DNA from: Clostridiales bacterium
GTDB taxonomy: Bacteria > Bacillota > Clostridia > Christensenellales > DTU072
NCBI GenBank assembly: GCA_012838805.1
Contig: DUON01000024.1
Coordinates: 1-64,000, forward strand
Direction: 5' to 3'
Length of the DNA stretch: 64,000 bases
Made by a program: the position numbers and the translations under genes. The notes under the pieces are model-generated. The model saw only the letters and a list, made by a program, of their open reading frames with translations, did no database searches and was not told the origin of the DNA. Every line of letters begins with the position of its first letter. Position 1 is the first letter of the stretch. Below are positions 4,023 through 14,734 of the stretch, piece by piece.

Positions 4023-5507
4023 ATGAATGGAGCAGTTGAAAACGGCTACCGAAAAAAATTAATGGTGAAAAACTCCCATAAGCTCGCTATGGGCTTGGGG
4101 GATTTTGGATACAGCCTAATCTCTTGCACCGCCGCCACATATATTATGACTTTCGGCACTATGGCGGTGGGCGTGAGCGGTACTCTGATGGGCATAGCGG
4201 TAGCCATAGGGACTTTTTTTGACGCGATATCCGACCCTATTGTCGGCTATATCTCCGACAACTCAAGAAACAGGTTCTTCGGCAAAAGACACGGCTTTAT
4301 GCTTTTTGGGCTCATACTTCTTGTTATGACAGGCGTGATTCTATGGGCTGTCCCCTTAGAAATGTCCATGATCGGGAAATTTATTTGGTTCGCCGTCGGA
4401 CTTACGCTCATTCGTACCTGGAATACCTTGTATTTTACGCCGATGTCCGCCTTTAGCGTGGAGGTCAGCGACGACTATAACGAAAGAACAACTATTCAGG
4501 CGATAAGGTCGGTTTTCTATATTTTGGGAATGATACTTCCCGTTGTCGCCATGGGCTTTTTTCAAAATAAATACACGGTCTATGACGAAGCGGGCAATGT
4601 GCTTATCGGCGGACAATTCTCCGTTCAAGGCTATGTGGACTTTTCTTATGTGGCGGGCAGTATAGCAATCGTGACCACGGTCTATCTGTTTGTCATGACC
4701 TTTTCAAATGTCCCGCGCATAAGACAAAGACAGATGCTGGACGAGATAGGCGAAAGGAAGAAAAGCTCATTGAAAGAAGTGCTTTTGGGATTCTTTAATG
4801 TGCTGAAAAACAAAGACATGAGATACATCATAGCCGGCTATTCAACCGCCATGGTTGCCGCAACCTTGATTATTACGCTTGGATTTCATGTGTTCACTTT
4901 CACATTTACATTGGCTACGACCCAGATGTATTTTCTTATGGGCGGGCTTTTGTTTATGACCATAGGCGGTCAGCCGTTATGGATATATATATCCAAAAAA
5001 ACCGACAAGAAAAGGTCCATGCTCATTGGATTGGGGCTTGCCTTGTTGGGATGTATTGGACTGCTCATTATGTTTTTGGCAAGGGCGGGGCTGAACAACT
5101 TTATAAGAGAGAATCGGCTGGGCGTTGCTCTTATGCTTCCTCCGCTTATGATAGCGGGAATGGGTACGGGCGTTTTGTACTCCATGCCGCTGGCCTTGAT
5201 TGGCGATGTGGTGGCAAAAACCAAAAAGACCCAAAAGGAAGAAAAAACCGGGACTTATGCGGGGATGATGACCTTGGCATATAAGACCAGCCAGGCGTTG
5301 ACACAGCTTGTGGCGGGAGTGGCGCTTGACCTCATTGGTTTCCAAGAGGGAAGCCATATTCAGCCCCAAGGAGTGGATGCATCGCTGGGGTGGTTTTTAT
5401 GTATTGGTCTGATATTGGCAATTTCGGGCGGTCTGCTTATTTTCAGCAGATTAAAAATAGACAAGGAAGAGATAACCAAAATACTGGAGGAACAGTCAAA
5501 TGCTTAG
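4023..5507 (+). CDS. MFS transporter of the glycoside-pentoside-hexuronide (GPH) symporter family
   Basis: 494 residues with about 12 membrane helices. The signature DAISDPIVGYISDNSR followed by GKRHGF matches the helix 2/3 region of MelB-type cation:sugar symporters, where the Asp residues line the cation site. The gene therefore probably moves a glycoside or hexuronide across the membrane with Na+ or H+. The substrate cannot be read from sequence and no glycosidase sits beside it. A GAGGAG site precedes the ATG. The stop overlaps the next gene by 8 nt, so the two are probably co-translated. Confidence 0.85.
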   Translation: MNGAVENGYRKKLMVKNSHKLAMGLGDFGYSLISCTAATYIMTFGTMAVGVSGTLMGIAVAIGTFFDAISDPIVGYISDNSRNRFFGKRHGFMLFGLILLVMTGVILWAVPLEMSMIGKFIWFAVGLTLIRTWNTLYFTPMSAFSVEVSDDYNERTTIQAIRSVFYILGMILPVVAMGFFQNKYTVYDEAGNVLIGGQFSVQGYVDFSYVAGSIAIVTTVYLFVMTFSNVPRIRQRQMLDEIGERKKSSLKEVLLGFFNVLKNKDMRYIIAGYSTAMVAATLIITLGFHVFTFTFTLATTQMYFLMGGLLFMTIGGQPLWIYISKKTDKKRSMLIGLGLALLGCIGLLIMFLARAGLNNFIRENRLGVALMLPPLMIAGMGTGVLYSMPLALIGDVVAKTKKTQKEEKTGTYAGMMTLAYKTSQALTQLVAGVALDLIGFQEGSHIQPQGVDASLGWFLCIGLILAISGGLLIFSRLKIDKEEITKILEEQSNA

Positions 5508-5865
5508 CATCATGCCCACAAACGACAAAAAACTTTTGGACAAGATGTCAAACGATATCTTCAGCCGTCATTATAACGGCGATATAGGCTATATACTTTA
5601 TGTGGACGAAAAAGAGGCGGGTGTGGCTCAACTTAGTATCGGCGAAACATCCGCAATTATGGCGATAGGAATTTTGCCCGATTATAGAAAAAAAGGCTAT
5701 GGCGACTTCTTTACAAGGTCAATCTTATTCCGCCTTAGTCAAATATCCCAGAAAATAAAAATAAATTATGTGGATGATTATTATACTAAATTCGGATTTA
5801 AGAAAAAAAACGATTATATGGAAATAGACTCAAAAGACTTGGAATTCACAAAAACACACTGTTAG
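5500..5865 (+). CDS. Small GNAT-family N-acetyltransferase
   Basis: 121 residues, shorter than most GNATs. The acetyl-CoA loop is visible as ILPDYRKKGYGDFF (R/Q-x-x-G-x-G/A type) around residues 58-71, after a short beta-rich start. The C-terminal YYTKFGFKKKNDY fits the usual GNAT beta6-beta7 end. It overlaps the symporter gene by 8 nt and lies 11 nt before glnS. The acceptor substrate is unknown. Confidence 0.7.
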   Translation: MLSIMPTNDKKLLDKMSNDIFSRHYNGDIGYILYVDEKEAGVAQLSIGETSAIMAIGILPDYRKKGYGDFFTRSILFRLSQISQKIKINYVDDYYTKFGFKKKNDYMEIDSKDLEFTKTHC

Positions 5866-5876
5866 GGAGAAACTAT

Positions 5877-7511
5877 ATGGAAGCGACTAACTTTATAGAG
5901 AACATTATCAACAAGGACTTGGAATCGGGAAAGGTCAAAAGCGTATATACAAGGTTTCCCCCCGAGCCAAACGGATATTTGCATATCGGACACGCCAAAA
6001 GTCTGTGCATAAATTTTGGCATAAAAGAAAAATACAACGGCAAATGCAACCTTAGGTATGACGACACCAATCCCGTTAAAGAAGAAGTGGAATATGTAGA
6101 CGCCATAAGAGAGGATATAAAATGGCTAGGCTTTGTGTGGGACGAGGAGAGGTACGCTTCGGATTATTTTGAACAATTTTATGAATATGCGGTAATGCTT
6201 ATAAAGAAAGGCTTGGCGTATGTGTGCGATTTGTCCGCCGAAGAAATAAGAGAAATCAGAGGCACTTTGACAGAGCCCGGAAAGGAAAGCCCCTACCGCA
6301 ACAGAAGCGTTGAAGAAAACCTTAGGCTTTTTCAAGAGATGCGGGAAGGCAAATACGCCGACGGCGAAAAGGTCTTAAGGGCGAAGATAGATATGGCGTC
6401 CAGCAATATGAATATGCGCGACCCCGTCATGTACCGTATATTAAGGGCAGAGCATCACAGAACGGGAGATAAATGGCTGATATACCCCATGTACGACTTT
6501 GCACACCCATTGGAAGACGCCATAGAGAACATAACCCATTCCATATGCACCTTGGAGTTTGAGGACCACAGACCCTTATATGACTGGTTTGTTGAACACT
6601 GCGAATTTGAGAACCCGCCCCAGCAGATTGAGTTTGCGAGGCTTGAAATCACGAATACGGTCATGAGCAAGCGATACCTTAAAAGGCTTGTGGACCAAGG
6701 TTTGGTGGACGGCTGGGATGATCCCCGCATGCCTACTCTTAGCGGGATGCGGAAAAGGGGCTACCCCCCCGAGGCTATAAAAAATTTCTGCCAAAAAGTA
6801 GGAGTCGCCAAGGCAAATTCAGTAGTCGACCACAGGTTGTTGGAATTTTGTGTAAGGGATTATTTGAACACCAACGCACCAAGGGCTATGATGGTAGAAA
6901 AGCCCTTAAAAATCATTATTGACAACTGGGAAGAGGGACGGTTTGAAACAATAGAGATTCCCGATTATCCACAAAATGAAGACAGCGCCACTCACAAAGT
7001 CAGATTCGGCAAAGAGATATTTATAGACAGAAGGGACTTTTCCCTAAATCCTCCGCCCAAATACCATAGACTTGTCGTGGGCGGAAAGATACGCTTGAAA
7101 GGGGCGTATATTTTGGAATACGCCTCCGTCGACAAGGACGAAAACGGCGAGGTCGTTGCCGTTCACTGCAATTATATTGAAGACAGCCGTTCGGGACAGA
7201 AAAATAGCAAAATAAAGGTCAAGTCCACTGTCCAGTGGGTAAATTGTGAAGATGCCCTGCCGTGCGAACTCTATAAGTATTCTTCGCTTTTTTTGGAGCA
7301 GGAAGACGCCGACGAAAATTGGGAAGAGAGAATCAATCCCAATTCCCTTGAAATAGTAAAAGACGCCGTGGTAGAGCCATTTTTGGCGGATCAAGAGATA
7401 GGAAAGTCTTTCCAATTCATGAGGGAAGCTTATTACAAATTGGCGGGAAAAGGCGAAAACGGGCTGAAATTCTATAGAATAGTGGAGCTTAAAGATAGCT
7501 TTAAGCTTTAA
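5877..7511 (+). CDS. glnS: Glutaminyl-tRNA synthetase
   Basis: 544 residues, close to E. coli GlnRS. Class I signatures are HIGH at residues 36-39 (in PPEPNGYLHIGHAKS) and MSKR at 263-266 in place of KMSKS. The GlnRS/GluRS-type beta-barrel anticodon-binding region makes up the C-terminal half. It charges tRNA-Gln directly with glutamine. Many Firmicutes lack GlnRS and use mischarging plus GatCAB, so its presence suggests an old acquisition. A GGGAG site precedes the ATG. Confidence 0.97.
   Translation: MEATNFIENIINKDLESGKVKSVYTRFPPEPNGYLHIGHAKSLCINFGIKEKYNGKCNLRYDDTNPVKEEVEYVDAIREDIKWLGFVWDEERYASDYFEQFYEYAVMLIKKGLAYVCDLSAEEIREIRGTLTEPGKESPYRNRSVEENLRLFQEMREGKYADGEKVLRAKIDMASSNMNMRDPVMYRILRAEHHRTGDKWLIYPMYDFAHPLEDAIENITHSICTLEFEDHRPLYDWFVEHCEFENPPQQIEFARLEITNTVMSKRYLKRLVDQGLVDGWDDPRMPTLSGMRKRGYPPEAIKNFCQKVGVAKANSVVDHRLLEFCVRDYLNTNAPRAMMVEKPLKIIIDNWEEGRFETIEIPDYPQNEDSATHKVRFGKEIFIDRRDFSLNPPPKYHRLVVGGKIRLKGAYILEYASVDKDENGEVVAVHCNYIEDSRSGQKNSKIKVKSTVQWVNCEDALPCELYKYSSLFLEQEDADENWEERINPNSLEIVKDAVVEPFLADQEIGKSFQFMREAYYKLAGKGENGLKFYRIVELKDSFKL
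7486..7511 (+). terminator. Hairpin overlapping the 3' end of glnS, possible terminator
   Basis: AGCTTAAAG (7486-7494) pairs perfectly with CTTTAAGCT (7499-7507) across a 4-nt loop and runs into TTAATT. The hairpin includes the last codons of glnS. The T tract is short, so termination may be weak. Confidence 0.45.
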
Positions 7512-7568: not shown

Positions 7569-7597
7569 TTGAAATTATTTTAGATTAATTATATAAT
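7569..7597 (+). promoter_or_regulatory. Promoter at the head of the paralogous membrane-protein cluster
   Basis: TTGAAA at 7569-7574 and TATAAT at 7592-7597 with a 17 bp spacer. The predicted start near 7604 leaves an untranslated leader of about 60 nt. This leader includes a small hairpin (TAGGTG/CGCCTA, about 7618-7632) before an AAAGGAG site. Confidence 0.7.
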
Positions 7598-7665: not shown

Positions 7666-9582
7666 ATGATAAGTAAGTCTGAAATCAGCTATAATCAAGC
7701 GGAAAAAAAAGGCGGGGCACCGTCTGAAAATGTTGACCTTAATCAAACTTCTTTAGTAGAAGATTTTGAGAAAGAAAGCCAAATCAATTTAGACCCAGAA
7801 AGACTTACATACATTTGTGACTATTGCGGCAAAGTTAACCATATTGACGAGCCAAGGTGTTTAAGATGCGGCAAGAGAAGACCCAGAAGCGAATTTGTCA
7901 AAGCTATGACAGCGGTCAGAGAATCCAAAATCGCCAAGCAAGAATACGAAGCACAAAAAGCCGCGAAAGAGCTTGAACGGCAGCAGGCGGAGAAATACCT
8001 TGAACAAAGAAGCGCGCAAATGTTTGCAGACAAGGAAGCCGCACAAAAACTTGAATTAGCCAGAATTATGGAAGAAAAGCTTGCCGACGAAAAGATGAAA
8101 ATGGCGGCAAGAGAAGAGGCGAGAATCGAACAGGAAAGAGACCACGCTAAGAAAATGGCGGCGCGGGAGGCTGTTTTGCAGATTATCGCCGCTGAGAAAT
8201 ATGCCGACGAAATAGTTGCCCACACCAAAAAAGACGCCACGCTTGCCTTGAAAGAGCAAGAAGCCGAATACAAAAAGAAGATTGCCGAAGAAAGAGAGAA
8301 GGCAATCAATATAGCCGCTGAAAAGCTTGTTGCGGAAAGGGCGGGCATTGAAAGATACGCCGCCGAACAAATCAGCAAAATAAAAGACAGTTCGGAAAGA
8401 ATGGCTAAGGAAAGAATCCTTGCCGAAAGAGACCAGTCCGAAAAAATGGCGGCAAGAAGAGCGGTTCTCCAGATTATCGCAGCGGAAAAAGCCGCTGAAG
8501 AAGAGCTTAGAATAAATAAAGAAGCTTTGTCAAGAGCGGCTCTTAGAAGAATAGAAGAAGAAAGAGAGCTTGCACAGAAAGAAAGCAATGCAAGATTCCT
8601 TGCTGAAAGACAAGGCATTGAGAGAGCGGCGGAAGAGAGAATAAGAGCTGAAAGAGAAGCCGTCAAGAGGCTTTTGGAAGAAAAAAAGGCGTGGGAGATG
8701 TCACAAACCGCCGTCACACCCCCGCCAGACCTTGCCCAAAACAAACAGATTATTCAGCCTTTTGTGGTTGTGCCCTATGTAAATTCCCAACAACCGCTTT
8801 TACAATATAGGCCCAATCAAGTTTATAGATTTGTTCCCAATACATATACCGAACAGCTTGAAGCTAAGGAGCGGGCGGAGAGAGACCTTAGAGTTATGCA
8901 AGAGGGACCTCAACCCACAGACCAAGAAATCAAAGAACTATTGGCAAAGAAGCAAAGAGAAAAAGAGCTTGTGGAACAAGAGCTCAATCAGCTTAAGAAA
9001 GCCGATATGCATACAGAAGACTATCAGAAAACTGACAAGAAAGGCAAACTAAGAGTTAGGCTTGTCGCTTTGTTCAGCGCTCTTTTTGCTTTAGGGTTTG
9101 GCGCTGTGCTGTGGTTTTTGCCTCTTCTATCAAACAATGTTTACTCTGACCCCAACGGCAACTTAAACATCTTCACGGGCTTTTTGGTACTTTTGCAAGA
9201 CGGCATTAACGGAATTGTTGGAACCGAGCTTGCCTTATTAGAAGCCAATTCCTTTGTTGAATTTATTACAAGCCTTGACTTTTTAGGCGGTATTGTCCTA
9301 CCCTTCGGACTGTTTGTGGCAGTGATTACATACGCTGTTATCCTCATAAGGTCTATTGTTAGGATTATCACAGGAAGAGCGAGAACAAAGGGTCTTTTCC
9401 TTTCCATATTTGGTTTTGTGTTTATTCAGATTATTGTCGCGGGCATATTCCTATTAACTAATACCATGGAGCTTGAATTTATTAACAACATAGAGATATC
9501 CGTATACATCCTTGAAGGTCTGGGCTTGTTGACTCTTATTATGGCGATAATTAACAAAATAAATTGCCGTAAAAGAATCTGA
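7666..9582 (+). CDS. RanBP2-type zinc finger, coiled-coil, four-helix membrane protein; first gene of the motif cluster
   Basis: 638 residues from the ATG at 7666, chosen because AAAGGAG lies 7 nt before it; an in-frame GTG at 7621 has no such site. Domains in order: a zinc finger Cys51-x2-Cys54-x3-Asn58-x6-Cys65-x2-Cys68, which fits the RanBP2-type pattern; an Ala/Glu/Lys/Arg coiled coil (about 85-345) holding a duplicated segment; the cluster motif as IIQPFVVVPY then QQPLLQY (about 362-381); a second short helical stretch; and four membrane helices in the last 175 residues. A basic loop between helices 2 and 3 places the N-terminal part and the zinc finger in the cytosol. Function unknown. 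It could act as a scaffold that links a soluble partner to the membrane, but that is inference. Confidence 0.85.
   Translation: MISKSEISYNQAEKKGGAPSENVDLNQTSLVEDFEKESQINLDPERLTYICDYCGKVNHIDEPRCLRCGKRRPRSEFVKAMTAVRESKIAKQEYEAQKAAKELERQQAEKYLEQRSAQMFADKEAAQKLELARIMEEKLADEKMKMAAREEARIEQERDHAKKMAAREAVLQIIAAEKYADEIVAHTKKDATLALKEQEAEYKKKIAEEREKAINIAAEKLVAERAGIERYAAEQISKIKDSSERMAKERILAERDQSEKMAARRAVLQIIAAEKAAEEELRINKEALSRAALRRIEEERELAQKESNARFLAERQGIERAAEERIRAEREAVKRLLEEKKAWEMSQTAVTPPPDLAQNKQIIQPFVVVPYVNSQQPLLQYRPNQVYRFVPNTYTEQLEAKERAERDLRVMQEGPQPTDQEIKELLAKKQREKELVEQELNQLKKADMHTEDYQKTDKKGKLRVRLVALFSALFALGFGAVLWFLPLLSNNVYSDPNGNLNIFTGFLVLLQDGINGIVGTELALLEANSFVEFITSLDFLGGIVLPFGLFVAVITYAVILIRSIVRIITGRARTKGLFLSIFGFVFIQIIVAGIFLLTNTMELEFINNIEISVYILEGLGLLTLIMAIINKINCRKRI
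8134..8655 (+). repeat. Internal duplication inside the coiled coil
   Basis: The segment ERD-x3-KMAAR-x-AVLQIIAAEK occurs at residues 157 and 254 of the encoded protein, 97 residues apart. It is followed in each copy by LVAERAGIER or FLAERQGIER. The second copy is 7 residues shorter, which is one heptad, as expected if the coiled-coil register had to be kept. Confidence 0.7.
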
Positions 9583-9636
9583 AAATAAATTTTATTATAA
9601 TAAGGAATAAAAATAAAATATAAGGAGAATAATCTT

Positions 9637-10455
9637 ATGTCTAAGAAAATTGACAAGACAATACCTGAAAATTATGAGGAATTGTCCGACCTGGAATTTA
9701 TTGCCTATGCGGATTATTTAAGTTCGCCTTACTACCGAAATTACTTAGAAGCAAAACAAAGAAGCGAGATATCCCAGCCAAGAGATATTTATGCCGATTC
9801 CATAAGGCCGGGTGCGAGTGCGAGAAAAGTAAGAGGTGACATAGGTATTACATATAGAAGAAGAAGCGGTTTGTTGGCATTGATAGCGATTTTTATGCTC
9901 CTAATAATAGCAGTAGCCGCTGTAGGGTATTTTGATGTATATCCCGAATACGTGTCGGCTTTTTCCAGAACCCAAGGGGAGACGGTTGACCAAGTGGATA
10001 TGGCTGACCCCGTATTGGGAGCTCTTGTCAAATTCGCCAAGATGGATTTCGATTCGATTTTTTATGATGACGCTCTTGCAACAATAGAAGATGAAGAGAA
10101 TATCGGAGCATTGATTGCTTATTACGGCATGCCGGTAGCCATAGCGTTGGCACTATTGATTGCTCTTATCATATTCATTACGGCACTGGTTGCGATTGGC
10201 AAGAGATCTATTGCGAAAGGATATGTGGCTAAGAAAACCAAGTTTGGATTTTTGTCCATTCTGCTTTTTGTACTGTCTTTATTTGTAGCCGCCGCCGGAA
10301 TTGTATGGAACGGAGCCGGCTTCAAAGAAATAGTCGGTTTCTTTACTGGCGAGAGTTCATATATTCAAGCGGGCTATGGGCTTTATGCCTTGATAGGATT
10401 GTCGCTAATTAGCTTAATCTTTAATCTTTTCGCATATAAGAAAGATTACAGATAA
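9637..10455 (+). CDS. Four-helix membrane protein of the cluster, without the linear motif
   Basis: 272 residues. A soluble N-terminal part of about 78 residues is followed by helix 1 (about 79-99), an outer segment beginning DPVLGALVKF, helix 2 (about 168-190), a basic loop (KRSIAKGYVAKKTK), helix 3 (about 204-228) and helix 4. Helix 4 carries YGLYALIGLSLISL, almost identical to YGLYAVAGLSLISL in the gene at 12179, which shows that they are paralogues. The proline-rich motif of the cluster is absent here but is encoded by the small gene 24 nt downstream. An AAGGAG site precedes the ATG. Function unknown. Confidence 0.8.
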   Translation: MSKKIDKTIPENYEELSDLEFIAYADYLSSPYYRNYLEAKQRSEISQPRDIYADSIRPGASARKVRGDIGITYRRRSGLLALIAIFMLLIIAVAAVGYFDVYPEYVSAFSRTQGETVDQVDMADPVLGALVKFAKMDFDSIFYDDALATIEDEENIGALIAYYGMPVAIALALLIALIIFITALVAIGKRSIAKGYVAKKTKFGFLSILLFVLSLFVAAAGIVWNGAGFKEIVGFFTGESSYIQAGYGLYALIGLSLISLIFNLFAYKKDYR

Positions 10456-10479
10456 TTATTATCAATAAGGAGATGTATT

Positions 10480-10692
10480 ATGGCTAAGAGAAACAAGTAT
10501 CAGGAATTTGAACAGCCGAGAAGAAAGGTTATGAGACCCGTTTACAGAATAGTCAACAACACTGGAGTTGTACCGGTAGCCAAACCCGCTTCGAATATTC
10601 AATTGACACCTATCGTGCAACCCATAAGCTTTGTTCCCTATTCCACTCAAAGTCAACCTATATTTACTGACGACCAAGATTACGATTATTAA
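10480..10692 (+). CDS. Small motif-only protein of the cluster
   Basis: 70 residues, soluble. The basic N-terminus is followed by the cluster motif at about 38-61 (PASNIQLTPIVQPISFVPY, then QSQPIF), and the protein ends in the acidic, tyrosine-rich tail DDQDYDY. It resembles the 82-aa product at 11878 along its whole length. A clear AAGGAG site 9 nt before the ATG and the shared motif argue that it is real despite its size. It follows a membrane paralogue that lacks the motif, so the pair may do what the fused members do alone. Confidence 0.8.
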   Translation: MAKRNKYQEFEQPRRKVMRPVYRIVNNTGVVPVAKPASNIQLTPIVQPISFVPYSTQSQPIFTDDQDYDY

Positions 10693-10716
10693 ACAAACGA
10701 AAAAACACATTCAGTC

Positions 10717-10741
10717 TAAGCTCTCAATCTTTGAGAGCTTA
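10717..10741. other. Perfect hairpin in the 175-nt gap of the cluster
   Basis: TAAGCTCTCAA (10717-10727) and TTGAGAGCTTA (10731-10741) form an 11-bp stem with a 3-nt loop. No T tract follows, so it is not a standard terminator. A second, weaker pairing, GGCGT/ACGCC, encloses 10743-10787. It could be a processing or stability element inside the operon. Confidence 0.5.
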
Positions 10742-10867
10742 AGGCGTCTAATTATTGAGGAAGCCTTTCCAAAAATAGTTAAACGCCTATGTATTGAACT
10801 GTATACTAATATATGATAAACTTAATAAGTGCGATTAAACTTTATCAACCCTTAAAAGGGAGGGCAT

Positions 10868-11854
10868 ATGGCAAAAAGGTATTATGACGATTATGATAAC
10901 TATGGCTCAAGACAACAGTCATCTTTTGGCCACCCCAGTTTACCGCCCATAATGCCGGTAAAAAGGAAGGATATGCCCTTAACAAAGCAACAGATGCTGG
11001 AAGAGCAGCAGAAAAGACTTCAATTTGAAAGAAAGAGAAGGGCAGTTGCGAATAGAAAGAGTTATTATAGGAATCAAGCCTCGGGCAAGAGAAAAAAGGT
11101 AGACCCCAACAAGAAATACCGCTTGGAGAAAGACAAGAGGATAAAAAAAGGTAGAGATTATTTCTTCGTTATGAGAAAGTTTGTCTGCTTTTTGCTCTTT
11201 TTGCTTTTTGCGGCAAGTATAGGCTTGTTTGCGGTGGGATACCTGAACTTGGTTCCCGAATACACTTCACTATATGTAGAGCCCGATTATACGCCCGAAG
11301 AAGAGAGAATAACCGAAGACGAGGAAGAGCCCTATGTCGACCAAAGTGAACACTTCACAACAGTAGACCCGATATTCGGCTTTTTGAAAAGTACTTTTGG
11401 GCTGGACCTTGGGCCTTCGCCCAAATATGACCAAATGGCTGAACAAGCGGAAGTGGGATACGAAGACATTGTCGCATCCATTGCCGTTACATACTTCCCG
11501 GTAGCTATGGCTTTGTATATTATAGCAGCTCTGGTTTCTATGATAAAAGCCTTTTTGGCGATGTTTGGAAGAAGAATCTTTCGTCTGTTCGGTCTCAGCG
11601 CTATATGGATGTTGATTATGGCGGGAGTGGTTATTTTGGGAGGAACGGCATCTAATCTCTCCCTTGATGCCTCCATGGACTATTCTCAAATCGTACCTTT
11701 CTTGACATCTGCGCTCATAGCTCCCAGTGACCCCGCTACGGCGCCCCAAACCGCCGCCGGCTTTGGGCTTTTGGCTATGGTGCTGCTGCCCGTATTGATA
11801 CTGATACTATCACTCTTTGCAAAGAAGAAAGTGCCTTTTAGTATATTTGATTGA
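10868..11854 (+). CDS. Four-helix membrane protein of the cluster, without the linear motif
   Basis: 328 residues. A very basic, Tyr/Gln-rich N-terminal region of about 100 residues leads into helix 1 (about 101-124). An acidic outer segment follows with DPIFGFLKST, matching DPVLGALVKF and DTVFGLLSLL in its paralogues. Then come helix 2 (about 213-236), the basic loop MFGRRIFRLFG, helix 3 (about 242-262) and helix 4, ending in AKKK. Like the gene at 9637 it lacks the proline-rich motif and is followed by a small motif-only gene. GGGAGG precedes the ATG. Function unknown. Confidence 0.8.
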   Translation: MAKRYYDDYDNYGSRQQSSFGHPSLPPIMPVKRKDMPLTKQQMLEEQQKRLQFERKRRAVANRKSYYRNQASGKRKKVDPNKKYRLEKDKRIKKGRDYFFVMRKFVCFLLFLLFAASIGLFAVGYLNLVPEYTSLYVEPDYTPEEERITEDEEEPYVDQSEHFTTVDPIFGFLKSTFGLDLGPSPKYDQMAEQAEVGYEDIVASIAVTYFPVAMALYIIAALVSMIKAFLAMFGRRIFRLFGLSAIWMLIMAGVVILGGTASNLSLDASMDYSQIVPFLTSALIAPSDPATAPQTAAGFGLLAMVLLPVLILILSLFAKKKVPFSIFD

Positions 11855-11877
11855 TTATAAATTGTGAGAGGATTATT

Positions 11878-12126
11878 ATGGCAAAAAAGAAGAATAAAAA
11901 AGCTATCCAAAATCAGCAGGCGGAAAGACCTGTAAAAAGGGTTCCCAGAGAGCAAATCATATACGCCAAAGTTCCGAGTGGAATCCCTATTGCGCAACCT
12001 GCCTCAAACATTCAGTTGACCCCGATAGTGCAGCCTGTTGCGTTCGTACCGTATTCCACCAGCAGACAGCCTTTAGTGGTCATGGACGAAGTCTATGAGG
12101 GCTATGAGGAATATGAAGATTATTGA
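11878..12126 (+). CDS. Small motif-only protein of the cluster, paralogue of the 70-aa protein
   Basis: 82 residues from the ATG at 11878, which has GAGAGG upstream; an in-frame TTG at 11851 overlaps the previous gene and lacks a site. The motif PASNIQLTPIVQPVAFVPY lies at about 42-59, followed by SRQPL. The tail EGYEEYEDY is acidic and rich in tyrosine like that of the 70-aa protein. There is no membrane helix or signal peptide, so it is expected in the cytosol. Function unknown. Confidence 0.8.
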   Translation: MAKKKNKKAIQNQQAERPVKRVPREQIIYAKVPSGIPIAQPASNIQLTPIVQPVAFVPYSTSRQPLVVMDEVYEGYEEYEDY

Positions 12127-12178
12127 TTTAAGGATAATTAAATAATAGTACAAATTTTTATATATAAGGAGACCTATT

Positions 12179-12880
12179 ATGTCCAAGAAAGAGAAAAAAG
12201 ACTTGATTGACAATGAATGGCTTGATGAAGAAATAAGCCAACCCGCTTCTAATCAATCTCAAGCGCCTTCTGGAGTGCAGCTGTCGCCTATCGTACAGCC
12301 CATAGCGCTTGTTCCCTACAATACGCAGGAACAGCCTTTATTCCAATATGGAAGCTATGATGTAGCCAAGGCAAGGGAAGAGATCTCTAGGGAATTTGAA
12401 GAGTATACCGAAAGTAAGGAAGATTATGAAGAGCAAATCACCCAAAAGAAAGTAAGGTTTGTTCCTATCTTTCTTGCCGTATTGAGCTTGCTTGTAATAG
12501 CAGTGCTTGTGGTGGGCGAATTTGTGGCTCAGGAATATCTTGCTTTGACAGCGGGTATGAGCGGATACGCTTATATCATGGAGCTTGTGGACGTCTTTAC
12601 TGGCGTAGGCGAGCTTGTCATAGCTGATTTGATTTTCCCGGGAGCCGTTGCACTTGTTGCAGTATTCGCATTAATAAACCTAATAGCCTCCTTAATAAAA
12701 ATGAAGTCTAAAGGTGCATGCGTCATATCAAAAATATGTATGTTCTTTATGCTTACTTTTTCTTTGACGCTTGTACTCATAAGCCTTATGAACGACTATG
12801 AGATAATATATGGTTTATATGCTGTGGCTGGACTGTCCTTAATATCTTTGGTCATTGGTTATTTAGCAAAGAAAGCCTAA
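12179..12880 (+). CDS. Four-helix membrane protein of the cluster with fused motif
   Basis: 233 residues, the shortest membrane member. The motif GVQLSPIVQPIALVPY lies at about 32-47, followed by QEQPLFQY, inside a charged cytosolic N-terminus. Four helices follow: about 97-120, 142-171, 180-200 and 206-230. Helix 4 has YGLYAVAGLSLISL, shared with the gene at 9637, and the end is LAKKA. The loop between helices 2 and 3 is basic (KMKSKGACVISK), so the N-terminus is predicted inside. AAGGAG precedes the ATG. Function unknown. Confidence 0.8.
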   Translation: MSKKEKKDLIDNEWLDEEISQPASNQSQAPSGVQLSPIVQPIALVPYNTQEQPLFQYGSYDVAKAREEISREFEEYTESKEDYEEQITQKKVRFVPIFLAVLSLLVIAVLVVGEFVAQEYLALTAGMSGYAYIMELVDVFTGVGELVIADLIFPGAVALVAVFALINLIASLIKMKSKGACVISKICMFFMLTFSLTLVLISLMNDYEIIYGLYAVAGLSLISLVIGYLAKKA

Positions 12881-12929
12881 AGGAATATAAGAAAAAAACT
12901 GGGTTCTTACTTAAAGGAGTTGATTAATA

Positions 12930-13268
12930 ATGAGAAGAAGAAGAAACAAAGACAGCGGTTACGAACCCGCGGTTAAGCGCCAAATGCAGCCTAATCAACA
13001 GATATACTGGCCGTATCCTACGCCTCAAAAACCCAATGTGACGGTAGCCATGCCCAATACGGGAAACTATCAGTCATACGGCGTGGGAACAATAATCGGT
13101 CTGCCCCAATATCAATCCATAGATGAGTACGGAAGGGTGTTCCATCCTCCGCTTTTGTATGGAGCTCAACCTTGTTCGGCACCCGTGCCTGTGGCAATAC
13201 CGTCGTCTATTGTGCAGACCACTCCTATAACATTGCCGTTGCAGATGTCATATGGCGATAATAAATAG
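12930..13268 (+). CDS. Gln/Pro/Tyr-rich soluble protein of the cluster with a degenerate motif
   Basis: 112 residues, starting with four arginines after Met and rich in Pro, Gln and Tyr, so probably disordered. Near the C-terminus PSSIVQTTPI aligns with PSSIVQLPPI of the next gene, but the VQPI-x-x-VPY half has decayed to TLPLQMSY. There is no membrane helix. AAAGGAG lies 12 nt before the ATG. It sits in the series between two motif-membrane fusions and is probably a diverged motif-only member. Confidence 0.7.
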   Translation: MRRRRNKDSGYEPAVKRQMQPNQQIYWPYPTPQKPNVTVAMPNTGNYQSYGVGTIIGLPQYQSIDEYGRVFHPPLLYGAQPCSAPVPVAIPSSIVQTTPITLPLQMSYGDNK

Positions 13269-13296
13269 ACCCAAAATCAATTAGGAAGGTAGAAAA

Positions 13297-14325
13297 ATGA
13301 TAAATGATATGAACAATCAGCAAGAATCGCGTAATCCACAAAACACCAGTTTTCTGACTCCGCCTCCCAATACGGCAGGTGCGGGACGACCTACTGTTCC
13401 TCAAAGCGACAATGGGAAATGGGTTCCCGTAGACCCCAATACTTTGGGCTTTACGGTAAGCGGTGGTATGAATCAGCCTATCCAAGGTCCGGACGGCGCT
13501 TATTATTGCATAAGCAATTCGCAGCCCGAGTATGCCAGCATACAGGCAAACTTCAACAATGCAGTTCCCACTCCTTCTTCAATTGTGCAGCTGCCGCCCA
13601 TAGTTCAGCCTATATCGCTGGTGCCTTACGCTTCTCAAAATCAGCCCTTACTTCAGTATGACCCCAATTACAGACCTATGGAGCCAGAAGCGCCTCAATC
13701 ACCCAGATACAGGCTTAAGCCTTATAGAGGAATTTCTTTTATTCAGATTCTATTCTCTTTGGCAGCTATTATTCTGATGGTCATGATGCTGGTTATTGAC
13801 GCCAAGAAAGGCGGGGGAGCGGTGGACTGGTCGGCTTATAAAGCAAACGGTTCGGATACCGTATTTGGTCTTTTGTCTTTATTGGGACTTGGCGGTATGT
13901 CCAGCGTGTATTATGACCAATTATTAAATGTTTACTTTACAGAGGGTCTTGGTGCGGGCTTTTCCGCTGACTGGCTGCTCTCATTGATGCTGATTCTTAT
14001 TCCCGTATTCGTAATACTGATTGTGATTTCATCATTAGTAATGCTGATATATTATATTGTAAAGATAGGCGCTATGAAATCCCCGAGAGCATTCAGCGCA
14101 GGAGCGTTGATAAATCTGCTCTCCAGCGGATGTATTATTGCCATGATTTATGGAATATCCTCAAGAGAGAACATGAACCTTGTACCGGGTCTGTTCGTAT
14201 ATGTTGTCGCCGCCATAAGCTTAATCATGATTATCTTGCCATACTTTGCCAGAAAAAACGCTTATGTGCTTGACGAAATTGCACTAAAGAAGGTCTATAT
14301 ACTTGACGAACCTGAAAAAGCTTAA
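13297..14325 (+). CDS. Four-helix membrane protein of the cluster with fused motif; last gene of the series
   Basis: 342 residues. The long polar N-terminus (about 1-145) contains the fullest motif copy, PSSIVQLPPIVQPISLVPY at 93-111 followed by QNQPLLQY. Helix 1 (about 147-167) is followed by an outer segment with DTVFGLLSLL and YYDQL, helix 2 (about 228-256), a basic loop (KIGAMKSPR), helix 3 (about 266-284) and helix 4, which ends in ARKN. This topology is the same as in the genes at 7666, 9637, 10868 and 12179. AGGAAGG precedes the ATG. Function unknown. Confidence 0.8.
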   Translation: MINDMNNQQESRNPQNTSFLTPPPNTAGAGRPTVPQSDNGKWVPVDPNTLGFTVSGGMNQPIQGPDGAYYCISNSQPEYASIQANFNNAVPTPSSIVQLPPIVQPISLVPYASQNQPLLQYDPNYRPMEPEAPQSPRYRLKPYRGISFIQILFSLAAIILMVMMLVIDAKKGGGAVDWSAYKANGSDTVFGLLSLLGLGGMSSVYYDQLLNVYFTEGLGAGFSADWLLSLMLILIPVFVILIVISSLVMLIYYIVKIGAMKSPRAFSAGALINLLSSGCIIAMIYGISSRENMNLVPGLFVYVVAAISLIMIILPYFARKNAYVLDEIALKKVYILDEPEKA

Positions 14326-14338
14326 TATAATAATATTG

Positions 14339-14416: not shown

Positions 14417-14647
14417 ATGGTTGTATTTGATAAAGTAAAGAGCCTTATCGCACAACAATTGGGAATCAGCGAAAGCGACATCACGGAAGACAGTTCCTTA
14501 GTAAACGATTTGGGTGCGGACTCTTTGGATATAGTACAAATGCTTATCAGTATGGAAAAGGAATTCGGAATAGTATTTGACGACAACGAAATAAAGAACA
14601 TAAAGACAGTAGGCGACGCAGTAAAATTCATAGACACTCATAAATAA
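14417..14647 (+). CDS. acpP: Acyl carrier protein
   Basis: 76 residues, the standard size. GADSLD holds Ser36, the site of 4'-phosphopantetheine attachment. The small acidic four-helix protein carries growing acyl chains in fatty acid synthesis. No other fatty acid gene is adjacent, which is unusual because acpP often follows fabD or fabG. AGGAG precedes the ATG. Confidence 0.97.
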   Translation: MVVFDKVKSLIAQQLGISESDITEDSSLVNDLGADSLDIVQMLISMEKEFGIVFDDNEIKNIKTVGDAVKFIDTHK

Positions 14648-14671: not shown

Positions 14672-14701
14672 TTGACATATCTAAATAACTTATGATATAA
14701 T
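14672..14701 (+). promoter_or_regulatory. Near-consensus promoter of the rpmG-secE-nusG operon
   Basis: TTGACA at 14672-14677 and TATAAT at 14696-14701 with an 18 bp spacer. The predicted start is about 14708. Confidence 0.8.
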
Positions 14702-14706
14702 ATTAA

Positions 14707-14734
14707 AGCACCCTTTGGGGGTGTTAATTTTTTT
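14707..14734 (+). terminator. Terminator-shaped hairpin at the predicted transcription start of rpmG
   Basis: AGCACCC (14707-14713) pairs with GGGTGTT (14719-14725), then AA and seven T (14728-14734). It lies downstream of the rpmG promoter and ends just before the GGAGG site at 14735. It can stop transcripts coming from acpP and would form the 5' end of the rpmG mRNA. Confidence 0.7.

Follow-up and report, generated by a model that had tools for sequence, protein, structure and literature searches.

The described membrane proteins closest in plan to those considered here are the claudins and TARPs (the PMP22-EMP-MP20-claudin group), in which a large outer segment separates the first two of four helices. 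Our working analogy is with tetraspans that use a short motif in their tail to attach to cytosolic scaffolds. A similar four-helix plan is predicted for five products of an eight-gene set found in a 64,000-nucleotide stretch of a Clostridiales bacterium genome (lineage DTU072; assembly GCA_012838805.1, contig DUON01000024.1, positions 1 to 64,000, forward strand), which is referred to below as the window. The eight genes, labeled A, B, s1, C, s2, D, E and F in their order on the + strand, lie between glnS and acpP and share a short peptide motif. We judge the chances to be about even that this operon encodes a structural, non-enzymatic membrane assembly organized in the cytosol through the shared motif, the physical assembly being something that we infer.

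The likeness to claudins concerns the helix plan. In Foldseek, B matched claudin-15 best (E 0.09, prob 0.87), and over ~150 residues the alignments with claudins and TARPs reach Z 9-10; however, Z 9-12 lies within the noise for helical bundles and designed four-helix bundles tie, so that a common arrangement is possible. The W-GLW-C-C claudin signature occurs in 0 of the 186 cluster domains, and the cluster proteins have no Pfam claudin match. We therefore dropped all fold claims beyond tetraspan-like, given that such Z values fall within the noise. Other curated families touch parts of the system. The double zinc ribbon family (DZR, PF12773) was matched by 11 of 16 A proteins (best E 2.5e-9) and DZR_2 by 12; many relatives of A have two consecutive CxxC..CxxC ribbons where the A of the window has one, and the coil, motif and four-helix parts of A are covered by no family. 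DUF4064 was matched by 3 of 38 B-family proteins (best E 7e-5; no match for the B of the window) and SUR7, of Pfam SUR7/PalI, by one B-family protein (E 0.0014), whereas neither family is matched by most B-family members or by the proteins of the window. No family assignment came from searches of Pfam, NCBIfam, PHROGs, PADLOC and PDB sequences, and a literature search found no paper on this cluster. A defence or phage origin was rejected, there being no PADLOC or PHROGs match.

A proline- and glutamine-rich motif on membrane and soluble products

A motif of ~30 residues, rich in proline and glutamine and with the consensus xQLTPIVQPIxxVPYxTQxQPLxQY, was found on five products: A (7666..9582, 638 aa; motif at 8722..8814), s1 (10480..10692, 70 aa; 10585..10674), s2 (11878..12126, 82 aa; 11998..12090), D (12179..12880, 233 aa; 12263..12352) and F (13297..14325, 342 aa; 13573..13665). 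A model's reading of the letters, hereafter the original prediction, had reported at least five such products, and a profile made from the five copies recovered them all. Exactly five places in the 1.69-Mb genome were matched by this profile, all of them in the cluster (E 2e-17 to 2e-11), and the best match outside the cluster had E = 2.6. A similar rate of the motif in unrelated proteins of the genome, which would have spoken against the original prediction, was thus not observed; the recurrence of the motif is far beyond chance. A decayed copy suspected in E (12930..13268, 112 aa), a soluble protein with conserved DEYGR and SAPVPVA blocks, proved to be real, as several E orthologues keep the motif intact where the E of the window has its decayed copy (13179..13256).

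Wider searches were carried out with a 24-row profile. The motif was present in all 40 genomes searched of the family to which we refer as f1, and in 66 of 396 genomes of the order, in families f1, f3 and f14; a 391-genome sample of the class contained no other genome with the motif. The motif is the best-conserved part of F, with a mean pairwise identity of 0.77 as compared with 0.29 in the membrane domain, and in A the identities of the zinc ribbon (0.51) and the motif (0.47) exceed that of the membrane domain (0.22). In the AlphaFold model of D, the motif region is unstructured, with a predicted local distance difference test (pLDDT) score of ~50, in contrast to >90 for the helices. A comparison of the motif with solved structures by sequence found no relative. 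Gene conversion among the motif copies of one genome was rejected, since their identity within genomes (0.473) was no higher than that of shuffled sets (0.478).

The motif thus recurs on proteins of differing build, membrane and soluble, with s1 and s2 among the soluble ones. The small proteins have an extended form consisting of a basic start, [F/W]-R-x-M-N-N..PVPVA, the motif and an acidic, Tyr-rich tail. MAKKNKK-like N-termini occur among them, and s1 shows both the basic start and the acidic Tyr-rich end. A zinc ribbon is present in 8 of 35 E orthologues. Since B and C, which both lack the motif, usually precede a small motif protein, it looks as though the small proteins provide in trans a motif that other subunits hold in cis.

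Four-helix domains and the zinc ribbon of A

Four helices each were predicted for A (domain at approximately 9061..9579), B (9637..10455, 272 aa), C (10868..11854, 328 aa), D and F, the last with an extended N-terminal region ahead of its motif. The AlphaFold models, which are of single chains, contain four helices in both B (mean pLDDT 83.8) and D, in agreement with the four-helix plan that had been proposed for five products. In profile-profile comparison, the membrane domains of A, B, C, D and F were linked at 94-99.9% probability, whereas the controls, EcfT, a 7-helix family and an MFS protein, reached at most 1.2% against the five domains and against each other. The original prediction had singled out B and D as being of recent common origin; their homology is borne out (98.7%), but the nearest pair is B and C (99.9%). 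As judged from the basic inner loops, both ends of these proteins would be cytosolic, helices 1 and 2 would be joined by a large outer segment and helices 2 and 3 by a basic loop, and the modeled plan is tetraspan-like. F showed no relative among solved structures by sequence. Hardly any polar residue of the four-helix domains is invariant, which speaks against an active site.

A differs from the other membrane products in carrying a zinc ribbon and a long coiled coil in addition to the motif and the four-helix domain. The ribbon (residues 51-68; 7816..7869) has the spacing C-x2-C-x3-N-x6-C-x2-C, which is found in 36 of 39 A proteins; the A of the window has this ribbon only, the first of the two seen in many relatives having been lost. 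The PF00641 profile (RanBP2-type zinc finger) was matched by 6 of 16 A proteins (best E 0.0016), and the conserved ribbon has Tyr or Phe where the RanBP2-type has Trp before the first Cys. Among solved structures, the best matches of the ribbon profile were weak ones, to ribbons of the ribosomal protein eL40 (E 0.003-0.02) and to ZNF265 (E 0.6). A is probably the evolutionary founder of the set, and it may be the hub or organizer of the assembly. Among its relatives is a 951-aa A protein (L151:11579-14434) whose coiled coil is very long and which contains a low-complexity stretch of GMNPAM/NNPAMMGANAQ repeats.

Conservation, growth and surroundings of the gene set

All eight open reading frames (ORFs) are present at the positions given in the original prediction; they run head to tail as one operon, with intergenic gaps of 24-175 bases and an AGGAG-like ribosome-binding site before all eight starts, the start of s2 being placed at 11878. 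In comparison with congeners, synonymous change exceeds amino-acid change in all eight genes (pN/pS 0.25-0.44), and s1, s2 and E are under purifying selection (pN/pS 0.25-0.34); all eight are therefore real genes, the small ORFs included.

Relatives were gathered with an alignment query; a single-protein query of genome contigs gave no matches. Several of the results rest on fragmented metagenome assemblies. The alignment search matched Clostridiales bacterium DTU072, Candidatus Stercoripulliclostridium, Christensenella sp. UBA1782/UBA3944 and termite-gut Christensenellaceae. The carriers are uncultured gut and digester bacteria, and the genes occur together in nearly every member of the family. 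Conservation of the cluster as a unit, a check proposed with the original prediction, was evident from the order glnS-A-B-s-C-s-D-E-F-acpP-secE-nusG-rplK, which is found in most intact f1 loci with the same flanks. Variants of this order are A-B-C-s-D-D-E-F in genus g8 and, through a block duplication, A-B-C-s-B-C-s-D-E-F in genus g9, in which an extra pair of s and a four-helix gene also stands alone, far from the main cluster (L146, L147, L148). The termite-gut genus g3 has glnS-A-B and C-s-D-E-F on separate contigs and has kept the genes. In UBA1782, a 955-aa frame contains five tandem tetraspan units (L092:5080-7947 = L151:5096-7963), the fifth of which is cut by a short run of N, an assembly gap.

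Outside f1 the versions are shorter: family f3 has three genes behind glnS, one with zinc ribbon and motif followed by two four-helix proteins, and family f14 has a differently placed version rich in small proteins. In family f20, which lacks the motif, just one zinc-ribbon/four-helix gene lies downstream of glnS (L194:3669-4604); it matches the A profile at 34.8 bits. The number of cluster genes is thus one in f20, three in f3 and eight to ten in f1. The single f20 gene likely represents a precursor state of the cluster. The comparison of these families suggests that an A-like founder later acquired the motif and that the set expanded through duplication.

The upstream neighbor glnS (5877..7511, + strand) is conserved in nearly all f1 and f3 loci. 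The gap between glnS and A contains a promoter-like site, TTGAAA-17-TATAAT (7569..7597, + strand), that is likely the operon start, and a second site, TTGACG-17-TATAAT (14303..14331, + strand), stands before acpP (14417..14647, + strand), which is followed by secE-nusG-rplK; both are consensus matches only, at 11 of 12 positions. No strong terminator was seen on the + strand between these two sites. Just past acpP lie a perfect consensus promoter, TTGACA-18-TATAAT with a preceding TG (14672-14701), and near it a terminator-like hairpin (14707-14725). Upstream of glnS, positions 5500-5865 encode a 121-aa protein that has no Pfam match and reads like a GNAT acetyltransferase; ORFs of similar size directly precede glnS in several relatives, including f3. 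No RNA elements or tRNAs were found in the window.

A possible membrane assembly and its alternatives

We propose that the five paralogous tetraspan subunits would be the bricks of an assembly, and that the disordered cytosolic motif would act as their common docking or assembly tag. The tag would be held in cis by A, D and F, while B and C, which lack it, would receive it in trans from the tiny basic-to-acidic adaptors s1 and s2, with E as an additional soluble carrier. A, with its zinc ribbon, coiled coil, own tag and tetraspan domain, would be the organizer. The role of a docking or self-assembly tag is suggested by the presence of a disordered, strongly conserved peptide on both membrane and soluble products of one operon, and the tandem fusion in one frame suggests that the tetraspan units may be packed side by side in the membrane. 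The motif would then bind a common partner or itself, the subunits would form one complex, and their role would be scaffolding. Five observations favor this assembly: a whole family conserves the cluster as a unit, genus g3 kept the genes after its cluster was split, a tandem fusion of four-helix units occurs in one genome, the motif recurs on soluble and membrane proteins of different build, and the cluster contains no recognizable enzyme or ATPase. The claim of the original prediction that the eight genes encode no recognized enzyme agrees with our search of the cluster. Its suggestion of a multi-subunit membrane assembly is, on the same grounds, the best-supported reading, with corrections as to the founder A, the tetraspan-like plan and the trans carriers. 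Several observations weigh against such an assembly. The motif copies of one genome showed no co-variation in the comparison with shuffled sets described above, and hence give no co-evolutionary support for one shared receptor; no candidate receptor for the motif was identified. Four-helix subunits tend to come with one motif each, but not invariably, as genus g8 has B-C-s, and tandem duplication alone can keep paralogues adjacent.

This last point leads to the possibility of a local radiation, in which repeated duplication of one zinc-ribbon/tetraspan gene behind glnS gave rise to proteins with separate minor envelope jobs, the motif being an inherited linker and no joint complex being formed. 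The series from one gene in f20 to eight to ten in f1 and the block duplication in g9 fit such a history. However, the motif is also carried by soluble proteins lacking a membrane domain, and no part of F evolves more slowly; the survival of the gene set after its split in g3 and the tandem fusion of units likewise speak against a mere radiation; we regard a radiation of this kind as rather unlikely. Another explanation is a tether between cytosol and membrane, in which RNA, the ribosome or another nucleic acid would be bound by the ribbon of A and brought as cargo to a membrane platform by the motif proteins. The conserved ribbon spacing, the eL40 and ZNF265 matches, the basic MAKKNKK-like starts of the small proteins, which would help, and the proximity of glnS, secE, nusG and rplK are consistent with this. 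Yet the zinc-ribbon matches are all weak and such spacing is generic, the A of the window has lost one of its ribbons, and the adjoining translation and transcription genes are no more than neighbors, so that a tether appears unlikely. The alternation of small genes with membrane genes would also suit precursors of a modified peptide or signal with four-helix exporters. This is extremely unlikely, as A and other larger membrane proteins contain the same motif internally, a layout of leader and core is not seen, and the cluster holds no modifying enzyme, ATPase or peptidase.

A lineage-specific scaffold of the pole or septum with DivIVA-like duties was also considered. In the 34 f1 genomes (G000-G033), no DivIVA (PF05103) match above the curated cut-off extended over the N-terminal region; G009 passed the cut-off over the coiled-coil part only, whereas 18 of the 24 remaining family representatives in the order, including f14 and f3, passed it. 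As a clue to function, the missing DivIVA is only a lead. One clade amounts to one event, three other family representatives lack both DivIVA and the motif (one of them being only 51% complete), and a divergent DivIVA could be missed. Moreover, the cluster carriers f3 and f14 mostly keep DivIVA-like proteins, for which reason DivIVA replacement was rejected as a rule for all carriers; a pole or septum scaffold is, taken together, very unlikely. Loss of MreB (PF06723) in f1 was likewise rejected: MreB is present everywhere, and its best E values, mostly 1e-20 to 1e-60 in f1 as compared with 1e-110 to 1e-145 in many other families, reflect a divergence that several other families share.

Returning to the membrane assembly, its most far-reaching form would be a new kind of structure in which interchangeable tetraspans are gathered by a short linear motif, held in cis or supplied by tiny adaptors. 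Starting as one zinc-ribbon/tetraspan gene, it would have reached eight to ten genes in one order of uncultured Clostridia, and in f1 it may have assumed polar or septal scaffolding once DivIVA was lost; we consider this full picture quite unlikely. The gene set itself, kept in fixed order by a whole family beside core translation and transcription genes, is covered by no curated family. With its layout and its traceable growth from one gene to ten, it can serve as a test case for the origin of a multi-subunit membrane structure by duplication, and the motif profile offers a way to search for the missing partner and to annotate proteins now called hypothetical in genomes from gut, rumen, termites and digesters.

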